A stretch of DNA of 38,572 nucleotides from Thermodesulfovibrio sp. (GTDB lineage Bacteria; Nitrospirota; Thermodesulfovibrionia; Thermodesulfovibrionales; Thermodesulfovibrionaceae), in contig JANXCZ010000095.1 of the NCBI GenBank assembly GCA_025060075.1, positions 1 through 38,572 on the forward strand, read 5' to 3'. The position numbers and the translations under genes are program-made. Positions 1,073 through 11,062 of this stretch are shown here, in pieces. The notes beneath the pieces were generated by a model, which was not told where the DNA came from, ran no database searches, and saw nothing but the letters and a program-made list of their open reading frames with translations. Within the stretch, counting starts at the first letter, position 1. Every line of letters starts with the position of its first letter.

Positions 1073-2383
1073 TCATTGAAAATTTCTTGACTTTATTATG
1101 TATGAATAAAAAGATGCTGCCTTAGTTGGAGTTCTTTTGTATGTTCTAAAATCCACTCTGTAAAGTCCAAATCTTGCATCAAGTCCATGAAGCCATTCGT
1201 AGTTGTCAATTAGTGACCAATAGAAGTATCCTCTAACATTTATTCCTTCAGATATGGCACTTTCAAGAACATCAATATGTGCCTTAATAAACTTCATTTT
1301 TTTGTTGTCATCCTTAGTGGCTATACCGTTTTCTGTGATTATGAGCGGAACATTTAGTTTAGAGGCATATCTTAGAACTTTTTTTAATCCTTTTGGATAT
1401 ATTTCCCAACCCATGTCTGTAAGTCCATGTCCATCTATATCTCTGTGTCTAAACTCAATAAATAGCTTTCTAAAAGGATTAAATCTCATATGAACTCTTG
1501 TGTAGTAGTTTATTCCTAAAAAATCAAGTTTACCTTGAATAGGTACATCTATCTCAAGAGTCTTTCTTAGTGGTATAGGCAGTTTAATTTTACCACTCAT
1601 AAATCCTTCAATAACGGATTGATTATAGAATTTTTTTGCAATCTTCGTTAAAAATCTATCCAAGGGATTCCACTTTATCCAAGGAGCAAATACAGCCATG
1701 TTATGAGCTATACTTACCATACTATTTTTATTTTTTAGATGAATAAGATCATAAATCTTTCCGTGACATATAAATATATTTTTCAGTGCCTTTATAGCTA
1801 AGCTTAAGTCTTTGTATCCTGGAGGAATGCATCCTTCAATATATCCTCCGAGGATTAGTATATATGGTTCATTAAAGGTTATCCAGTAGTTGACACCCTT
1901 TATGTTTTCAACTAATCTTTCTACATACTCTATAAACTTTTCTATAGATTTTTTCTTATGCCATGGATACTTTGTTATAAACCAAACAGGATGAGTAAAG
2001 TGGTGAATAGTCACCATAGGTGTAATGTTATTTTCATTTAATAAATCAATAATCTTTTGGTAGTGGTTTACTACTTCTTTACTCCAGTAGTCTTCTGATG
2101 GTTGAATTCTACTCCATTCGATTGAAAATCTATAAGCATTGACACCGAGATTTTTTATTAATTTTATGTCTTCCTTGTATAGTTCGTAATGATTCGTAAT
2201 CTTTGGATTAAGATTAAAGATACTATCCCAGGTAGACCAGTCTGCATAGGGAGAGCCTTCAAGTTGAAAAGCTGAAGTTGCCACACCCCATAGGAATTTA
2301 TTGTTTTTTCTATTTGTTTGGGATTGATATATAGACTTTTGTTCCCTTGCCGTATTCACTCTCAATTGAGATGCTTCCTCCAA
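1073..2383 (-). CDS. Glycoside hydrolase family 1 (beta-glucosidase-like)
   Basis: FLWGVATSAFQLEGSP N-terminus, acid/base motif TFNEP and nucleophile motif ITENG. Start uncertain (ATG 2383, TTG 2365 or GTG 2359), all inside the preceding HK gene. Confidence 0.85.
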   Translation of the reverse strand: MEEASQLRVNTAREQKSIYQSQTNRKNNKFLWGVATSAFQLEGSPYADWSTWDSIFNLNPKITNHYELYKEDIKLIKNLGVNAYRFSIEWSRIQPSEDYWSKEVVNHYQKIIDLLNENNITPMVTIHHFTHPVWFITKYPWHKKKSIEKFIEYVERLVENIKGVNYWITFNEPYILILGGYIEGCIPPGYKDLSLAIKALKNIFICHGKIYDLIHLKNKNSMVSIAHNMAVFAPWIKWNPLDRFLTKIAKKFYNQSVIEGFMSGKIKLPIPLRKTLEIDVPIQGKLDFLGINYYTRVHMRFNPFRKLFIEFRHRDIDGHGLTDMGWEIYPKGLKKVLRYASKLNVPLIITENGIATKDDNKKMKFIKAHIDVLESAISEGINVRGYFYWSLIDNYEWLHGLDARFGLYRVDFRTYKRTPTKAASFYSYIIKSRNFQ

Positions 2384-2996
2384 GAATATTTATTAACTCT
2401 TTTGTTATGTAAAGTCCAAGTTTAGAACTTTCATATGTTTTTTCATGGGAAAAATTATCTGAGAAGAAGGGATTAAATATATAGCCTTGTTCTTCCTTTG
2501 GAATTCCTACTCCTGTGTCTTCCACTTTAATTAAAACATAGTTGTTTAACTTACTAAGACTGAATAAGATATAACCTTCTTTAGTAAACTTTGCAGAGTT
2601 TGATGCAATATTTATAAGAATCTGTTTTATTTTAAGGAGATCTGAGGATACAATAAGTTCTTCCTCTTCAAAAGCAGTTTTTATCTGTATGGGTTTACTC
2701 TCTATTAGTATTTTCGTTATCTCCACTACTTCATGGAGAATTTCAATAATATTAAACTCTTCTATAACTAAATTTTGTTTGCCTGATTGAATTTTATCAA
2801 GTTCAATTGTGTTTGAAATATAGTTTTTCATAAATATTACTTGGGATGTAATGATAGATGTATATTTTTTTATCTTTTCTTTGTTTGGTTCTTCAAGGCT
2901 TAACTCAATAAGTTTAGCAAGATTAAGTATGGTATTAAGAGGAGATTTTAGTTCATGAGAAAAGACTAATAAATATGGAATATTATTCTTAATCAT
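2310..2996 (-). CDS. Histidine kinase consisting only of HisKA and HATPase_c
   Basis: H-box FSHELKSPLNTIL, N-box NIASNSAKFTKEGY, G1 DTGVGIPKEE, F-box IFNPFF, G2-like LGLYITKELINILGGSISIES; no sensor or TM region. Confidence 0.88.
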   Translation of the reverse strand: MIKNNIPYLLVFSHELKSPLNTILNLAKLIELSLEEPNKEKIKKYTSIITSQVIFMKNYISNTIELDKIQSGKQNLVIEEFNIIEILHEVVEITKILIESKPIQIKTAFEEEELIVSSDLLKIKQILINIASNSAKFTKEGYILFSLSKLNNYVLIKVEDTGVGIPKEEQGYIFNPFFSDNFSHEKTYESSKLGLYITKELINILGGSISIESEYGKGTKVYISIPNK

Positions 2997-4014
2997 TTCT
3001 TCTGTCTTTGAATACTACCGAACCATTACTTATCCTTGCAATTCTTTTTGCCTCTGCTTTCACTTCTGAGGCAATTGAGGCAAGATGAGCAAAGGAAGTT
3101 ATATTTCTCGTCTCAGTGCTTACAATTGCACAGGTAAGGGAAAGAAGTTTAAATACTTCATTTTCTTCTTTTCTGTTTTTTGATATATAGTAACCTTTTA
3201 TAAAGTCCTCTCCATGAAAGTATGGTAAGAGCTCTTCAAAAGCTTTTATTATGTTTTGACATATTGATATGGAAACTTTTGGTGGTGATATGAAAATAAA
3301 GTCATCTCCTCCAATATGCCCTATAAAAATTTCAGGAAAGTTTTTTGCTGTCTCTTTAAGAATATTTCCGATACTTATAATTACTCTATCTCCCTTTTCA
3401 AATCCATAGCAATCATTAAAAGGTTTAAAATGGTTTATATCTATGTAACATACATCAAAGAGACATTTACATTTAATTCTTCTTTCTATCTCTCTTTGAA
3501 TAGCCCAGTTTCCAGGTAGTCCAGTAAGAGGATTGGCATCTCTTGCTATTATCAATGATCTCTGAGTTATGGCTTCAAGCAATACACTTATAGGAACAAC
3601 TCCGTGATACTCATTATTTTTGCTTACAATGATATCATCGTATATTTTTTTGAGCTCTCTTTTTTGAACTATCATTGAAGCCTCCTCAAGAGTCATAGCA
3701 TAATCAATAATGAAGGTTGGTTCTTCCATAACTTCAAATACGCATTTTTTAGCATTTAGATGAATTCCATAACCAAATCTTCCGAGAACTGTATTTTCTA
3801 AGAATCTATTTCTGTGAAGCTGTCCTATTACAGTATTTTTATCTACTACTGGAATTAGATTTAGTTTTTCGTCTTTCATAAACCTAAGAAATGCATCCAT
3901 AATCTTAGCTTTCTTGTTTAGCGGTTCAACCTTAACCGCGATATCTCCTATTGATAAATCTAATATTGATGGTTCTATATCACACTTTATAGAATTTAGA
4001 TCATCTATCAACAT
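2989..4014 (-). CDS. CBS-domain diguanylate cyclase (CBS-GGDEF)
   Basis: DxLT motif (DANPLTGLPGN) and GGDDF active-site motif (HIGGDDFIFI), preceded by CBS-like repeats; overlaps the upstream EAL ORF by 14 nt. Confidence 0.88.
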   Translation of the reverse strand: MLIDDLNSIKCDIEPSILDLSIGDIAVKVEPLNKKAKIMDAFLRFMKDEKLNLIPVVDKNTVIGQLHRNRFLENTVLGRFGYGIHLNAKKCVFEVMEEPTFIIDYAMTLEEASMIVQKRELKKIYDDIIVSKNNEYHGVVPISVLLEAITQRSLIIARDANPLTGLPGNWAIQREIERRIKCKCLFDVCYIDINHFKPFNDCYGFEKGDRVIISIGNILKETAKNFPEIFIGHIGGDDFIFISPPKVSISICQNIIKAFEELLPYFHGEDFIKGYYISKNRKEENEVFKLLSLTCAIVSTETRNITSFAHLASIASEVKAEAKRIARISNGSVVFKDRRND

Positions 4015-4765
4015 TTCTATTTTTATTTATTTTCTCTTCAGGTTTTCCAAGATAAAATCCCTGAAGAAGATCAGCTCCCATATTTATAACCTCACTTAAC
4101 TGAGTAGGAGTTTCAATTCCTTCAGCTACGACCATTATATTTAATTTATGACAAACTTGCACTGTAAAATCTATAAAATACTTTGAAAAATTGTTTTCTT
4201 CTATGGCATGTATAAAATACTTATCTATCTTTACAATATCAGGTTCAAGAAGACTAAGAAGCTTAGGACCTCCGAATCCTGCTCCAAAGTCATCTATTGC
4301 TATTTTGTAACCTCTATTTTTATAGTAAGATACAGACTTGATAAATATCTCATAATTTTCAATGGCTGACTGTTCAGTTATTTCAAGGACTATTCTATTT
4401 TTTGGAAATCCAAACTCTTCTGCAAATCTGTCAGTTATCCCAACTTCATGATTAGGATAGGATAGAGTTTCAGGACATATGTTAATAAAAAGATAACTGT
4501 CAATATTTTGTCTTGAGGCTTCTTTTATTGCATTTCTTCTGCATATCATATCAAGTATAAATATTGAGCCATTTTTTCTTGCCTCAAGAAAAAGATTTTT
4601 TATATTTTTTATTGATTTATGTCTCGTCAGAGCCTCATAACCAAAGATTGTACCAGTCTTTGCAGAGAATATAGGCTGAAAATGAACTTTAAGATCTGAA
4701 TATGGTAAATCTAAGTTTTTATTTTGATAGATCCTATATTCTGTCTGTAGCACTTTTACCTCCAC
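4001..4765 (-). CDS. EAL-domain c-di-GMP phosphodiesterase
   Basis: FGYEALTRH, NICPETL, EITEQS, DDFGAGFGG, KIDKYFI, VAEGIE, QGFYLGKP motifs. Start probably GTG at 4753 (after GGAGG) rather than GTG at 4765. Confidence 0.88.
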   Translation of the reverse strand: MEVKVLQTEYRIYQNKNLDLPYSDLKVHFQPIFSAKTGTIFGYEALTRHKSIKNIKNLFLEARKNGSIFILDMICRRNAIKEASRQNIDSYLFINICPETLSYPNHEVGITDRFAEEFGFPKNRIVLEITEQSAIENYEIFIKSVSYYKNRGYKIAIDDFGAGFGGPKLLSLLEPDIVKIDKYFIHAIEENNFSKYFIDFTVQVCHKLNIMVVAEGIETPTQLSEVINMGADLLQGFYLGKPEEKINKNRNVDR

Positions 4766-4798
4766 TTTATTTTTCTTATGAAGATTATCTCATAGTTT

Positions 4799-4838
4799 TG
4801 TTACAGAAAAATTAAGAGATTGTTAAAGTATTGTTAAA
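4799..4838 (-). promoter_or_regulatory. Putative PhoB box array (4 x 11-bp repeats), leftward promoter
   Basis: Minus strand: TTTAACA-ATAC-TTTAACA-ATCT-CTTAATT-TTTC-TGTAACA, then 9 nt (AAACTATGA), then GATAAT (-10 at 4789-4784). Third repeat is degenerate. Confidence 0.75.
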
Positions 4839-4851
4839 TTTCAAAGAAAAA

Positions 4852-4906
4852 TTTAACAGAAATTTAAAGAACATTTAACTTTCATGTAACTTCATAGGTT
4901 TATTAT
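4852..4906 (+). promoter_or_regulatory. Putative PhoB box array (4 x 11-bp repeats) plus -10, rightward promoter
   Basis: TTTAACA-GAAA-TTTAAAG-AACA-TTTAACT-TTCA-TGTAACT (repeats start at 4852, 4863, 4874, 4885), 9-nt spacer TCATAGGTT, then TATTAT at 4901-4906. Confidence 0.8.
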
Positions 4907-4917
4907 TGAATTAAGAA

Positions 4918-5607
4918 ATGCTCTTATGTGATTTTCATATTCACACTAAATACTCAGATGGTTCTATGGAGCTTAAAGATGTAGTTGATCTTTTCGGGCA
5001 AGCAGGATTTGATGTTATTGCCATTACTGACCATGTTGTAAATGGAGACAGTATGATTGGAAAGTTTGCATATAAGTTTAGATTTACAGTTACTGAAAAA
5101 AACTTTAATGAATACATAGAGAACATAAAATATGAAGCAAAAAGAGCTTGGGATAAATATGGAATGCTTGTTATTCCAGGGGTTGAGATAAGTAAAAACT
5201 ACTTTTCCTCTGAAAAATCCGCTCATATTTTAATAATCGATATAAAGGATTTTATTCCTGCCTGTGAATCCTATGAAAAGATATTTCTTGAGGCAAAAAG
5301 ACAAAAAGCCTTGGTTGTTGCCTGTCATCCTCATCATATGAAGGGAGAAATTCGCAATACTTTGTATTTATGGAAAAACAGAAATAAATATGGAAAGTAT
5401 ATAGACGCATGGGAAATAGCAAATAGAGATGATGTGTTCAATGTTGTAAGTGTTAAAAAATATCCTTACATAGCAAACAGCGATTTTCACAAAGCAAGCC
5501 ATCTTTACTCATGGAAAACACTTCTTAACTGTAATAAGGATGTAACATCTGTAAAAAACTGCATAAAAGAAAATAAAGGTGTAGCAATAACACTTTTTAG
5601 GGGGTAA
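4918..5607 (+). CDS. PHP-domain metal-dependent phosphoesterase/hydrolase
   Basis: CDFHIHTKYSDGS N-terminus, ITDHV, PGVEIS, ACHPHH, ANSDFH metal-site motifs. Confidence 0.85.
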   Translation: MLLCDFHIHTKYSDGSMELKDVVDLFGQAGFDVIAITDHVVNGDSMIGKFAYKFRFTVTEKNFNEYIENIKYEAKRAWDKYGMLVIPGVEISKNYFSSEKSAHILIIDIKDFIPACESYEKIFLEAKRQKALVVACHPHHMKGEIRNTLYLWKNRNKYGKYIDAWEIANRDDVFNVVSVKKYPYIANSDFHKASHLYSWKTLLNCNKDVTSVKNCIKENKGVAITLFRG

Positions 5608-5609
5608 GA

Positions 5610-6782
5610 ATGATTCTGTGGATATTTTTGTTTTTAGTTTTTTTAAGCTTAACAGTTTATATTTTGCAAACCTTGGCATTAAGAAGAAAACTTATAGAAA
5701 ATTATATTCCTAAAAGCCTTCCTCCAGTATCAATAATTAAACCTCTTAAGGGACTTGATGACAATCTCTTTGATAATCTTGAAAGTTTCTGTAAACAGGA
5801 TTATCCTGCGTATGAAGTTATTTTATCATTAAACGATTATAATGATCCTGCATACAGGATTGCTCAAAAAATAAAGAGCAGATATCCTAACCTTGTAAGG
5901 ATTATTGTTGACAATTCATCTAATGCTTTAAATCCAAAGGTAAAAAATATGATTTCTGCCTATGAAGAGTCAAAGTATGATTATTTCCTTATAAGTGACA
6001 GCAATGTCTATGTTGAGCCAGACTATTTACGAAAAACTATTTCTGCTATGACTTCAGATACAGGTCTTGTTACCAATCTTATCATAGGGCAGGGAGGTAA
6101 AACCTTTGGTGCCAAACTTGAAAATCTTCATCTAAACTCATTTGTAATTACAAGTGTATGTTTTCTTGATAAATTTCTCAAGATGCCATGTAGTATTGGT
6201 AAATCCATGCTCATGAGAAAAAAAGATTTTGAAGAAATAGGCGGTTTTAATGCAGTAAAAGATGTTTTAGCAGAAGACTATATAATAGGAAAATTAATGA
6301 ATGAAAAGGGTAAGAAAGTTGTACTTTGTAGCTACACAGTAAAAAATATAAATGAATACTGGTCATTTAGGAAGTTTTTAAACAGACACACAAGATGGGC
6401 AAAGATAAGATGGAAAATAGCAGGAGTAAAATACTTTAGTGAACCTCTAAGTAATCCTGTTTTTTTATCATTTTTTATTCCAATTTTAGAGGGATTTTCA
6501 AGGATTTCTATAACAGCATTTATATTGACAGTTATAATAAAAATTGCTTTTGATCTCTACATAGGCAGAATGATTAAATCTCCCTTAGGATTCTCAAGCC
6601 TTCTTATTCCAATTAAGGATTTGATAACTGCCTTTATATGGTTTGTTCCTCTTATTAGTTGCAAAGTTAACTGGAGGGGAAATATTTATAAAATTGGAAA
6701 GAATACTGTAATAGTGCCCTATGAGGGAAATTCCTCTATAAAGATTATGTTTAATAAGCTTAAAACAGCTATAACAAATTAA
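5610..6782 (+). CDS. GT21-like (ceramide glucosyltransferase / HpnI-like) membrane glycosyltransferase
   Basis: N-terminal TM, PPVSIIKPLKGLDDNL, GT-A fold motifs (ISDSNVYVEPDY, EDYIIGKL), RHTRWAKIRW resembling the (Q/R)xxRW region, C-terminal TM segments. Confidence 0.8.
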   Translation: MILWIFLFLVFLSLTVYILQTLALRRKLIENYIPKSLPPVSIIKPLKGLDDNLFDNLESFCKQDYPAYEVILSLNDYNDPAYRIAQKIKSRYPNLVRIIVDNSSNALNPKVKNMISAYEESKYDYFLISDSNVYVEPDYLRKTISAMTSDTGLVTNLIIGQGGKTFGAKLENLHLNSFVITSVCFLDKFLKMPCSIGKSMLMRKKDFEEIGGFNAVKDVLAEDYIIGKLMNEKGKKVVLCSYTVKNINEYWSFRKFLNRHTRWAKIRWKIAGVKYFSEPLSNPVFLSFFIPILEGFSRISITAFILTVIIKIAFDLYIGRMIKSPLGFSSLLIPIKDLITAFIWFVPLISCKVNWRGNIYKIGKNTVIVPYEGNSSIKIMFNKLKTAITN

Positions 6783-6794
6783 GGGAGAAAAACC

Positions 6795-8345
6795 ATGGAA
6801 AGAAGAGATTTTCTAAAGGCTTCTTTAGCAAGTTTTATAGCTCTTATTACTTCATCAAAGGAAGTTTTTGCAAGGGTCAGTGACTTAGAAGTTTCAGGAG
6901 CAAAAGGAGTAATATTCATTGTAGGTGATGGTTGGCCCCTTGGAGTTATTAAAGCGATGAATGAGTTTATGGAGATGAAGTTCAAAGAAAAAAGCAATAT
7001 TTTAAGTCTTATCAGAAATTCTAAAACAAGACTCTTACTTCAGAATACTTCCTCTCTTTCTTCTGTTGTTACTGACTCTGCACCTGCATCTGTTGCTTGG
7101 GCTACGGGTTCAAAAACAATAAACAGAAGTCTTTCTGTTTTACCTGATGGAAGAAGTCTAAAAACCATATTTGAGCTTGCAAAGGAAAAGGGAATGTCTT
7201 GTGGATTTGTAACCACTACAAGAATAACTCATGCAACACCTGCAGCATGGTATAGTCATAACTCTAACAGAGATGATGAAGAAAATATTGCTCTTGAGCT
7301 ACTCAACTCTAATTTGGATGTGGCTATGGGAGGCGGTGACAGATTTCTAAATAAAGAAAAGAGAAAGGACAAAAAAGATATCTATGCAATGTTTTTATCA
7401 AAAGGCTATAAAGTAGTTAAGTCTAAGGAAGAGTTAATAAATAGCATCTCTGATGAAAATCCAATTGTTGGAGTTTTTAGCTCATCCCATATAAGTTATT
7501 TTGTTGATAGAATGAATGATGAAAAACTAAGCCAAAAAGAACCCTCTTTGCCAGAGATGACCGCAGTAGCCCTTAAAAAGTTAGCAAAAAACAAAAGAGG
7601 CTTTATTCTTCAGATTGAGGCTGGAAGAATTGACCATGCCTGTCATGCTAATGATGCTTACTCTGCGATGATGGACTGTTACGAGCTTGATAAAACTATT
7701 GGAGTAGTCATGGATTTCATAAATAAAAATCCAGATGTTTTATTAATAGTAACATCAGATCATGGAAACTCAGGTTATGGAATAAACGGAACAGGACCTG
7801 AATACAATGATGCAACAGAGGCTTTAATGAAATATAAAAACAGAGCTTCTTTTGAGTACATGATTAAAAAGATGAAAAATCAAGATTTAAAAACTGTAAA
7901 GGATATCTTTGAAAACTATACTCAACATAAGATTTCCATGGAAGAGGCAGAGGAGATATATAAAAACTTGAATGAAAAGAGAAATATAGTAGTCAATGAC
8001 ATATGGTATGAACCAGAGGCAACAATGGGAAGAATTCTTGCAAGGAGCATATATGAATATGAAAATGAAAGGCTTAATAAACCTGCTAAGGAAAGAAGAG
8101 GAAATGTGGGTTTTACATCAACAAATCATACTGCCGAAGACCAAATTGTTTTAGTTTACGGAAAAAGATTCTCGGCAGGAGAATTAAAAAGCCATATAGA
8201 CAATACTGAGCTTTATAGTTTTATGTGTAAATACTTAGGAATAAAGCATATAAATCCAAAGATGAATAGAAAAGATGCTACTTCCTATGTAAAGGCTATA
8301 TCTAGGGATGAATGGGAAAGACATCTTAAACTTCATATATCTTAA
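6795..8345 (+). CDS. Alkaline phosphatase, PhoA family, with Tat-like signal peptide
   Basis: MERRDFLKASLASFIALITS twin-arginine leader; VGDGW, VTDSAPASVAWATG, THATPAAWYSH, QIEAGRIDHACHAND, VTSDHGN, STNHTAED catalytic/metal motifs. Confidence 0.92.
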   Translation: MERRDFLKASLASFIALITSSKEVFARVSDLEVSGAKGVIFIVGDGWPLGVIKAMNEFMEMKFKEKSNILSLIRNSKTRLLLQNTSSLSSVVTDSAPASVAWATGSKTINRSLSVLPDGRSLKTIFELAKEKGMSCGFVTTTRITHATPAAWYSHNSNRDDEENIALELLNSNLDVAMGGGDRFLNKEKRKDKKDIYAMFLSKGYKVVKSKEELINSISDENPIVGVFSSSHISYFVDRMNDEKLSQKEPSLPEMTAVALKKLAKNKRGFILQIEAGRIDHACHANDAYSAMMDCYELDKTIGVVMDFINKNPDVLLIVTSDHGNSGYGINGTGPEYNDATEALMKYKNRASFEYMIKKMKNQDLKTVKDIFENYTQHKISMEEAEEIYKNLNEKRNIVVNDIWYEPEATMGRILARSIYEYENERLNKPAKERRGNVGFTSTNHTAEDQIVLVYGKRFSAGELKSHIDNTELYSFMCKYLGIKHINPKMNRKDATSYVKAISRDEWERHLKLHIS

Positions 8346-8363: not shown

Positions 8364-9080
8364 ATGAAGATAGGAATATTAGGTGATATTCATGGGAATA
8401 TAGAAGCTTTAAAGACTGCCTATCAGACTGCTGTTGAAGAAGGTGTTGAAAGAATTTATCATCTTGGAGACCTTGGTGGATATGCACCTTTTGTTAATGA
8501 AGTAGCTGAATTCCTTATAGAAAAAAATATTGAAGGAGTTCAAGGCAACTATGATGAAGCTATAGCATATGACAAGACTCATTGTGGGTGTAAATATGAA
8601 GATGATTTTCAGGCTAAGATGGCTCAACTTTCCTTTGATTGGACAAAGAGAGCTGTAAATGAAAAAACAAAAAACTATATGAAAAATCTTCCTTTCAGTA
8701 TTTCTCTTCAAGTTGAAGAAAGAAAAATAAAGATATTTCATGCTACACCAATAAAGAATAATCTCTACTGGTATGAGGAAAGAGAAGAAAAATTTTATCT
8801 TTTAATGGCTCAAAAAGCAGAGGCTGAAATAATGATTTATGGGCATACCCATATTCCATATTTTAAAAAGATTAAAGATTTTTATTTTATTAATGCTGGA
8901 AGTGTAGGGAAGCCAAAGGATGGCGATCCAAGAACATGCATATGCATAGTTGATATTAAGAGAAAAGATGTCAATGTAAGTTTTATAAGAAAAAGCTATG
9001 ATGTTAAAAAAGTGGCAAATGCAATAATTGAAAGCGGACTTCCTGAGTATTTTGCAGAAAGATTGATTTTAGCTAAATAG
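8364..9080 (+). CDS. Calcineurin-like metallophosphoesterase (YfcE/MJ0936-like)
   Basis: MKIGILGDIHGN, HLGDLGGY, VQGNYD, HATP, YGHTHIPY, NAGSVGKPKDGDPR. Confidence 0.88.
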   Translation: MKIGILGDIHGNIEALKTAYQTAVEEGVERIYHLGDLGGYAPFVNEVAEFLIEKNIEGVQGNYDEAIAYDKTHCGCKYEDDFQAKMAQLSFDWTKRAVNEKTKNYMKNLPFSISLQVEERKIKIFHATPIKNNLYWYEEREEKFYLLMAQKAEAEIMIYGHTHIPYFKKIKDFYFINAGSVGKPKDGDPRTCICIVDIKRKDVNVSFIRKSYDVKKVANAIIESGLPEYFAERLILAK

Positions 9081-9090
9081 GAGGTATCAT

Positions 9091-9465
9091 ATGAAAAGAG
9101 GTAAAATATTATTAGTTGATGACAATGAGAATGACTTAATTACTACGAAAGAGCTCCTTGAGAAAGTAGGTTATACAGTTATTCAAAATCTGGGATGGCT
9201 TGGTGTTACTAAGAATGTTAAGTTTTTAAATCCTGATTTAATTCTTCTTGATGTGAATATGCCAGCATTATCCGGAGATTGTCTTTGTAATTTAATAGAT
9301 AAGTATGTTAAAGAAAAAAAGATTCCAGTTTTGTTTTATTCTGCGTTGGATGAAAACTATCTTAAAAAGCTCACGATTATGAAAGGAGTTACGGATTATA
9401 TTATTAAAGGAGATATATTCCAACTTTACAGAAAAATTTCTCATTACACCAGAAAGTCTAATTAG
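9091..9465 (+). CDS. Stand-alone response regulator receiver (REC) protein
   Basis: ILLVDDNEND, phosphoacceptor ILLDVNMP, FYSALDE, conserved Lys in DYIIKGD; no output domain. Confidence 0.9.
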   Translation: MKRGKILLVDDNENDLITTKELLEKVGYTVIQNLGWLGVTKNVKFLNPDLILLDVNMPALSGDCLCNLIDKYVKEKKIPVLFYSALDENYLKKLTIMKGVTDYIIKGDIFQLYRKISHYTRKSN

Positions 9466-10250: not shown

Positions 10251-11013
10251 TTATTTTATATATCTTTTCCAGTATGCTCTAACTTTATCCTTTAAATTTT
10301 GTGGTAATGCTATGTAATCAAGCTTTTTTGCAGTACTCTCACCATCTTTAAATGCCCAGTCAAAGAATTATTAGTATATATTTAGCACCTGTAATAGGCC
10401 AAACCTTTTTAACTGGTGCATTTGTCATCCATGCATAGAAGTGAGTTTTTGCATCAAGATCTACAGATAATGCAGATTCAGAAAATCTTTCAAAGTCTGC
10501 TTTTACAATTTGTCCTGAAGGATTTTTAAGTTTTAAAACAGTAAGCTTATTCTGTTTAACATAGGTAAACTCAACATATCCAATTGAGTTTGGAGTTGTT
10601 TTAACATAGTTTGTAACTCCTTCGTTGCCTTTTGCTTCAATTTCTGTTTTCCACTTTATAGAAGTTTCATATCCATTTTTTACATGAACTACTTAAATAG
10701 TGGGTAAAGATAGCTGTTGTTTATGAGCCATCAAAACTATATAACAGTTATGGGTTTTGAAGGTAAGTTTGGATTTAATGCTTTAATTTTAAGGTCATCC
10801 CATTTTCCTATTTCACCAAGAAATATTTCACAGATTGTTGTTCCATCAAGAACTAAACTGTCAGAATGTTATACCCTGAATATTTACAACTGGAACAATA
10901 CCACCAATTACACCAGGAAATTGCAAAAATTTTGACTTTTCTATTTCTTCAGGCTTAAGTGCCATGTCAGATGCACCAAAATGAATAGTTCTTTCAATTG
11001 CCTGTTTTGTAAC
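10251..11013 (-). pseudogene. pstS: Degenerate phosphate-binding protein PstS (5'-truncated, frameshifted, with stops and an internal deletion)
   Basis: Minus-strand fragments in several frames: TKQAIERTIHFGASDMALKPEEIEKSKFLQFPGVIGGIVPVVNIQG / [39 protein letters not shown] / FDGS*TTAIFTHYLS / KGNEGVTNYVKTTPNSIGYVEFTYVKQNKLTVLKLKNPSGQ...TNAPVKKVWPITGAKYIL / FDWAFKDGESTAKKLDYIALPQNLKDKVRAYWKRYIK*. Confidence 0.9.
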
Positions 11014-11062
11014 AGAAATTTAACATTTCTGTAAAGTTAGTGTAACATTAGCTTTGTATAAT
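11008..11062 (+). promoter_or_regulatory. Putative PhoB box array (4 x 11-bp repeats) plus -10 upstream of the pst operon
   Basis: TGTAACA-GAAA-TTTAACA-TTTC-TGTAAAG-TTAG-TGTAACA (starts at 11008, 11019, 11030, 11041), 9-nt spacer TTAGCTTTG, then TATAAT at 11057-11062. Confidence 0.88.

Follow-up and report, generated by a model that had tools for sequence, protein, structure and literature searches.

The Pho box consists of two 11-nt units, each with seven conserved and four looser bases (PMC4415409), and in E. coli it takes the place of the -35 element (PMC4971064). PhoB control of c-di-GMP enzymes is already known from Pseudomonas (PMC3032545), Vibrio (PMC12351708) and Desulfovibrio (PMC3333781). 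The RapA pathway of Pseudomonas fluorescens employs a PhoB-controlled c-di-GMP phosphodiesterase that is expressed at low phosphate (PMC3032545), and the regulon of the Desulfovibrio vulgaris PhoB, DVU1083, is reported to carry its motif at 14 of 30 targets (PMC3333781). For the Pho regulon of Thermodesulfovibrio, a limited literature search found no study.

The locus described here lies in the window, that is, the whole 38,572-nt stretch of Thermodesulfovibrio sp. (Nitrospirota) DNA that was analysed; it is contig C53 of a 1.2-Mb MAG (68% complete). Positions 4784-4906 very probably constitute a divergent PhoB-dependent (Pho-box) promoter pair that is induced when phosphate is scarce. The pair is a further example of a well-known control element, with unstudied genes attached. 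As in the PhoB Pho box of E. coli and many other bacteria (PMC4415409, PMC4971064), head-to-tail 11-bp direct repeats are found at the promoters of phosphate genes; unlike the E. coli-type box (CTGTCAT), however, the consensus here is TTTAACA/TGTAACA, and every promoter carries four repeats. The DVU1083 motif, a direct repeat (c/t)GT(n)AC, is close to TGTAAC, and the targets of that regulon likewise include pst genes, phoU and HD/EAL phosphodiesterase genes, yet it has many other targets and belongs to a different phylum; the available part of its report describes no divergent array pair (PMC3333781). PhoB-linked genes of c-di-GMP metabolism are also represented by acgAB of Vibrio cholerae (PMC12351708). 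As a difference from RapA, the EAL protein of this locus is encoded by a short ORF of its own, next to those for a CBS-GGDEF protein and a kinase core. In PlcP-Agt lipid remodelling, a Pho-box-controlled phosphoesterase similarly adjoins a lipid glycosyltransferase (PMC4796936), but the phosphoesterase beside the glycosyltransferase here is of the PHP family.

Structure of the arrays

Three arrays with their -10 elements were annotated in the window:

4852..4891, plus strand: Pho-box array of four heptamers at 11-bp pitch (TTTAACA 4852, TTTAAAG 4863, TTTAACT 4874, TGTAACT 4885)
4901-4906, plus strand: -10 element TATTAT, 9 nt (TCATAGGTT) past the plus array, with no separate -35
4839..4851: inter-array spacer of 13 bp, separating the 5' ends of the two arrays
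4799..4838, minus strand: Pho-box array of four heptamers at 11-bp pitch (TTTAACA 4838, TTTAACA 4827, CTTAATT 4816, TGTAACA 4805)
4789-4784, minus strand: -10 element GATAAT, 9 nt (AAACTATGA) past the minus array
11008..11062, plus strand: third Pho array with its -10, upstream of pstSCAB-HEAT-phoU (TGTAACA 11008, TTTAACA 11019, TGTAAAG 11030, TGTAACA 11041)
11057-11062, plus strand: -10 element TATAAT, 9 nt (TTAGCTTTG) past the third array

On recheck, the letters, coordinates, pitch and spacers that the earlier note had given for the divergent arrays were all correct; its back-to-back layout also stands, with transcription running outwards, and only its word 'facing' was loose. The arrays are direct repeats of 11-bp pitch with a conserved heptamer, and they replace the -35, with 9 nt to a sigma70-type -10 in all three arrays of the window. 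In the information profile of related loci, strong information is limited to the four repeats and the -10, the latter being the sole further peak downstream of the array; as for a fifth repeat, information upstream of repeat 1 shows no peak. Repeats 2 and 3 are looser than the others in the weight matrix; in repeat 1, position 6 is always a C, though the search pattern did not require it. The inter-array spacer is 12-13 bp in 10 of the 11 relatives with both arrays and 4 bp in locus L012. A strictly fixed gap was considered and rejected: the distance between first bases is 13-14 bp in the window and ten relatives and 5 in L012, and because of this deviation the gap is not absolute.

Gene content of the two operons

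Of the two back-to-back promoters, one most likely drives a phosphate-scavenging operon to the right and the other a c-di-GMP signalling operon to the left, with the following genes:

4918..5607, plus strand: PHP-domain phosphoesterase at the head of the plus operon (Pfam PHP, 3.6e-9)
5610..6782, plus strand: GT21 glycosyltransferase, ceramide-glucosyltransferase/HpnI-like (Pfam Glyco_transf_21, 2.2e-47)
6795..8345, plus strand: alkaline phosphatase (Pfam Alk_phosphatase, 8.8e-70)
8364..9080, plus strand: calcineurin-like/YfcE-family phosphodiesterase (Pfam Metallophos_2, 1e-27; YfcE above cut-off)
9091..9465, plus strand: receiver-only response regulator at the end of the plus operon (Pfam Response_reg)
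4001..4753, minus strand: EAL c-di-GMP phosphodiesterase at the head of the minus operon (Pfam EAL, 1.3e-46)
2989..4014, minus strand: CBS-GGDEF protein with GGDDF signature (domain match and motif check)
2310..2996, minus strand: histidine kinase core without sensor domain (HisKA, HATPase_c)
1073..2383, minus strand: GH1 glycosidase, probably the last gene of the minus operon (Pfam Glyco_hydro_1, 1.2e-85)

The GT21 protein scored 237 bits against the NCBIfam HpnI model, below its cut-off of 310. The ATG of the PHP gene (4918) lies 11 nt past the -10 and is not preceded by a Shine-Dalgarno sequence; in most of the genus the distance is 10-13 nt, again with no Shine-Dalgarno. Across the order, over 20 loci have a distance of 7-9 nt, likewise with no Shine-Dalgarno, and in another group it is 36-48 nt. 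Loci outside the window with a short distance include L098, L104, L111 and L139. As the PHP start is located 7-13 nt past the -10 at many loci of the order, a leaderless mRNA is predicted, provided that transcription starts where expected. By the same token of start-codon position, the PHP and Zn-ribbon mRNAs (the latter gene is described below) are predicted to be leaderless or near-leaderless. Ordinary leaders with GGAGG were found for pstS and for most EAL genes.

The EAL gene itself likely starts at GTG 4753, after GGAGG at 4763-4759, and not at 4765 as in the ORF list. All catalytic motifs of the EAL domain are kept (EAL, FIN, EITE, IDDFG, VKID, EGIE and QG); where active diguanylate cyclases have the signature GG(D/E)EF, the window and all relatives detected read GGDDF. 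Thus, net c-di-GMP breakdown would be the likelier effect of the minus operon. Within the genus, EAL and CBS-GGDEF are encoded by two ORFs that overlap (4001-4014 in the window), but they form a single protein of ~620 aa in several further families of the order. The GH1, PHP and GT21 genes stay adjacent across Thermodesulfovibrionales (L088-L147), in some Deltaproteobacteria and in Desulfurella, an adjacency that suggests one pathway.

Scores, conservation and the pairing of each array with its operon

A weight matrix of 55 columns was built from 34 genus sites, with the three arrays of the window excluded. It gave 43.3 bits for the plus array (4852-4906), 47.8 bits for the minus array (4784-4838) and 50.0 bits for the pstS array, and the best non-overlapping place elsewhere in the window reached -0.4 bits. 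The maximum was 18.3 bits in 60 order-2 simulated windows and 18.7 bits in 20,000 simulated intergenic regions of matched AT-rich composition. Sites above 14 bits numbered 139 in 68 related loci (1.08 Mb), and none was found in the reversed or the simulated versions of these loci. Similarly, a pattern modelled on the arrays had 39 matches in 16 genus genomes and, read backwards, no match in the same genomes; since this pattern was derived from the window, the matches of the window itself are not independent.

Among the intergenic regions of 13 genus relatives, 11 carry both arrays at the orthologous position, and the plus array is kept before PHP-GT21 at many loci in other families of the order. 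At L007 and L008 only the plus array is present; the divergent neighbour there is yajC-secD and the minus array is missing. In the corresponding genomes (G008 and G013) the EAL-GGDEF-kinase operon is located elsewhere, yet it is preceded by an array (38.8 bits on contig C58 of G008 and 29.6 bits on contig C17 of G013). The G003 locus (L085, 175-1583) lacks the EAL, GGDEF and kinase genes, and there the minus array (52 bits) directly precedes GH1 alone. From these layouts, each array belongs with one particular operon. Support for Pho control of EAL did not extend beyond the genus: the fused EAL-CBS-GGDEF gene is preceded by a weak motif at a distance (18.6 bits at 385 nt in L090; 19.9 bits at 273 nt in L092) or by none (L096, L104, L109, L111 and others).

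These data bear on two alternative readings. Chance periodic runs of TTTAA might be suspected, given an AT-rich region and a heptamer core made up mainly of A and T; this has practically no probability and is already refuted by the simulations and by conservation, as none of the 20,000 composition-matched regions exceeded 18.7 bits, against 43.3 and 47.8 bits for the two arrays, which moreover recur at orthologous positions. The claim of the earlier note that such a double array is unlikely by chance was therefore borne out. It is also very improbable that one array only is a working promoter, the other being a by-product, whether a shared upstream box, a decayed site or a repression site. The minus array does score lower in certain relatives (36 bits in L013 and 31 bits in L012), but here it reaches 48 bits with its own -10 and a Shine-Dalgarno before EAL; furthermore, it is missing where the neighbour is unrelated (L007 and L008), kept where GH1 alone remains (G003), and an array stands before the relocated EAL operon in both G008 and G013. 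Two working promoters thus remain the preferred reading.

Regulon, candidate regulator and proposed mechanism

Strong sites in the 16 genus genomes precede pstS, pstS2, phnD, PHP-GT21, EAL, a Zn-ribbon/HMA_2 gene pair and the receiver gene. With a sequence profile, each genome had between 1 and 7 sites at E <= 0.01, and the weakest of these included partial matches. Four profile sites were found in the present genome, before the PHP operon, the EAL operon, pstS (11008-11062; E 5.6e-12 with profile R1) and the Zn-ribbon plus HMA_2 pair (contig C29). In relatives, arrays were located before pstS2 (L181, L182, L189 and L190), a phnD-like gene (L184), the receiver gene (L075 and L076) and, weakly, pstC2 (L186 and L187). 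As the motif precedes phosphate genes (pstS1, pstS2, phnD and the alkaline phosphatase operon), the arrays represent a Pho box and not a generic 11-bp repeat. The earlier note had placed both divergent operons under Pho boxes, and its interpretation is supported by enrichment of the motif upstream of other Pho genes (pstS, pstS2, phnD) and by conservation in related genomes, where the pair is kept in 11 genus relatives.

The regulator was sought in the same genomes. In the 68%-complete assembly, no Trans_reg_C match and no OmpR/PhoB winged-helix regulator was found, and the phoBR region of relative G015 had no match in a search run without a positive control, most simply because the assembly is incomplete. 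A PhoB-type regulator is present in 11 of 11 genus genomes that are at least 90% complete, with a PAS-type kinase gene directly downstream; its best NCBIfam model is PhoB (TIGR02154), at 278 and 269 bits, below the cut-off of 296.2. No array was found at phoBR in the genus loci seen, which argues against autoregulation through the array motif. The kinase and receiver of the window were considered as the missing PhoR/PhoB and rejected, the receiver having no DNA-binding domain.

It is improbable that the arrays are read by a different member of the OmpR/PhoB family (WalR/VicR-like or MtrA-like), in which case the signal might be something other than phosphate. In Bacillus (low-GC Gram-positive bacteria), PhoP and WalR boxes are TTAACA-type or TGTWAH-type repeats of 11-bp pitch, and TGTWA-type direct repeats at 11 bp are also WalR boxes. 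The genus regulator also matches the YycF/WalR (262 bits) and MtrA (245 bits) models, its best PDB sequence matches are RegX3 and MtrA, and further winged-helix regulators are present in the genus. However, the array targets are pstS, pstS2, phnD and the alkaline phosphatase operon, genomes G004, G008 and G013 have only two winged-helix regulators each, one of them PhoB-like, and RegX3 is itself a regulator of the phosphate response. PhoB as the binder, activation at low phosphate and the attendant physiology are the most likely reading of the sequence.

Under PhoB control, scarce phosphate would lead phosphorylated PhoB to bind head to tail on the four 11-bp repeats of each side, that is, on two 22-bp Pho boxes per promoter; as a Pho box is a pair of 11-nt units that replaces the -35, four PhoB protomers would be expected at each promoter. 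Bound PhoB would substitute for the -35 and bring sigma70-type RNA polymerase to the -10 located 9 nt on. The rightward output would be the PHP phosphoesterase, GT21 glycosyltransferase, alkaline phosphatase, metallophosphodiesterase and receiver, the leftward output the EAL phosphodiesterase, CBS-GGDEF protein, histidine kinase and GH1, and the same regulator would act on pstSCAB-phoU via the array at 11008. The likely outcome would be phosphate scavenging, possibly lipid remodelling, and a lowered c-di-GMP level. A more specific proposal is doubtful: a compact Pho regulon in which starvation switches on a lipid-exchange branch (PHP, GT21 and GH1, with a leaderless mRNA) and a c-di-GMP-lowering branch, both driven by a single back-to-back operator of eight repeats, which together with the leaderless start would determine the response ratio.

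For Thermodesulfovibrio and relatives, the analysis provides a Pho motif and a list of targets that can be tested, and it adds a phylum where low phosphate appears to reach c-di-GMP via PhoB. It also marks the uncharacterised PHP-GT21-GH1 genes, the Zn-ribbon/HMA_2 pair and the receiver-only regulator as likely phosphate-starvation genes.

Several minor features of the regulon were also recorded. The arrays repeatedly target a gene pair for a small Zn-ribbon protein and, after it, a protein with an HMA_2 domain (L067, L068, L074, L089 and L101); in the present genome the array of this pair is at G000:C29:4082-4136 (L191), and the start codon of the Zn-ribbon gene is about 5-9 nt past the -10. 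In G008 and G013 (L075 and L076) a separate Pho array precedes the gene of the receiver-only regulator, although this protein has no DNA-binding domain. A broken remnant of a second pstS (pstS2) is located at 10260-11005 on the minus strand, divergent from pstS1, and intact pstS2 copies are found in the relatives L069, L181 and L182.
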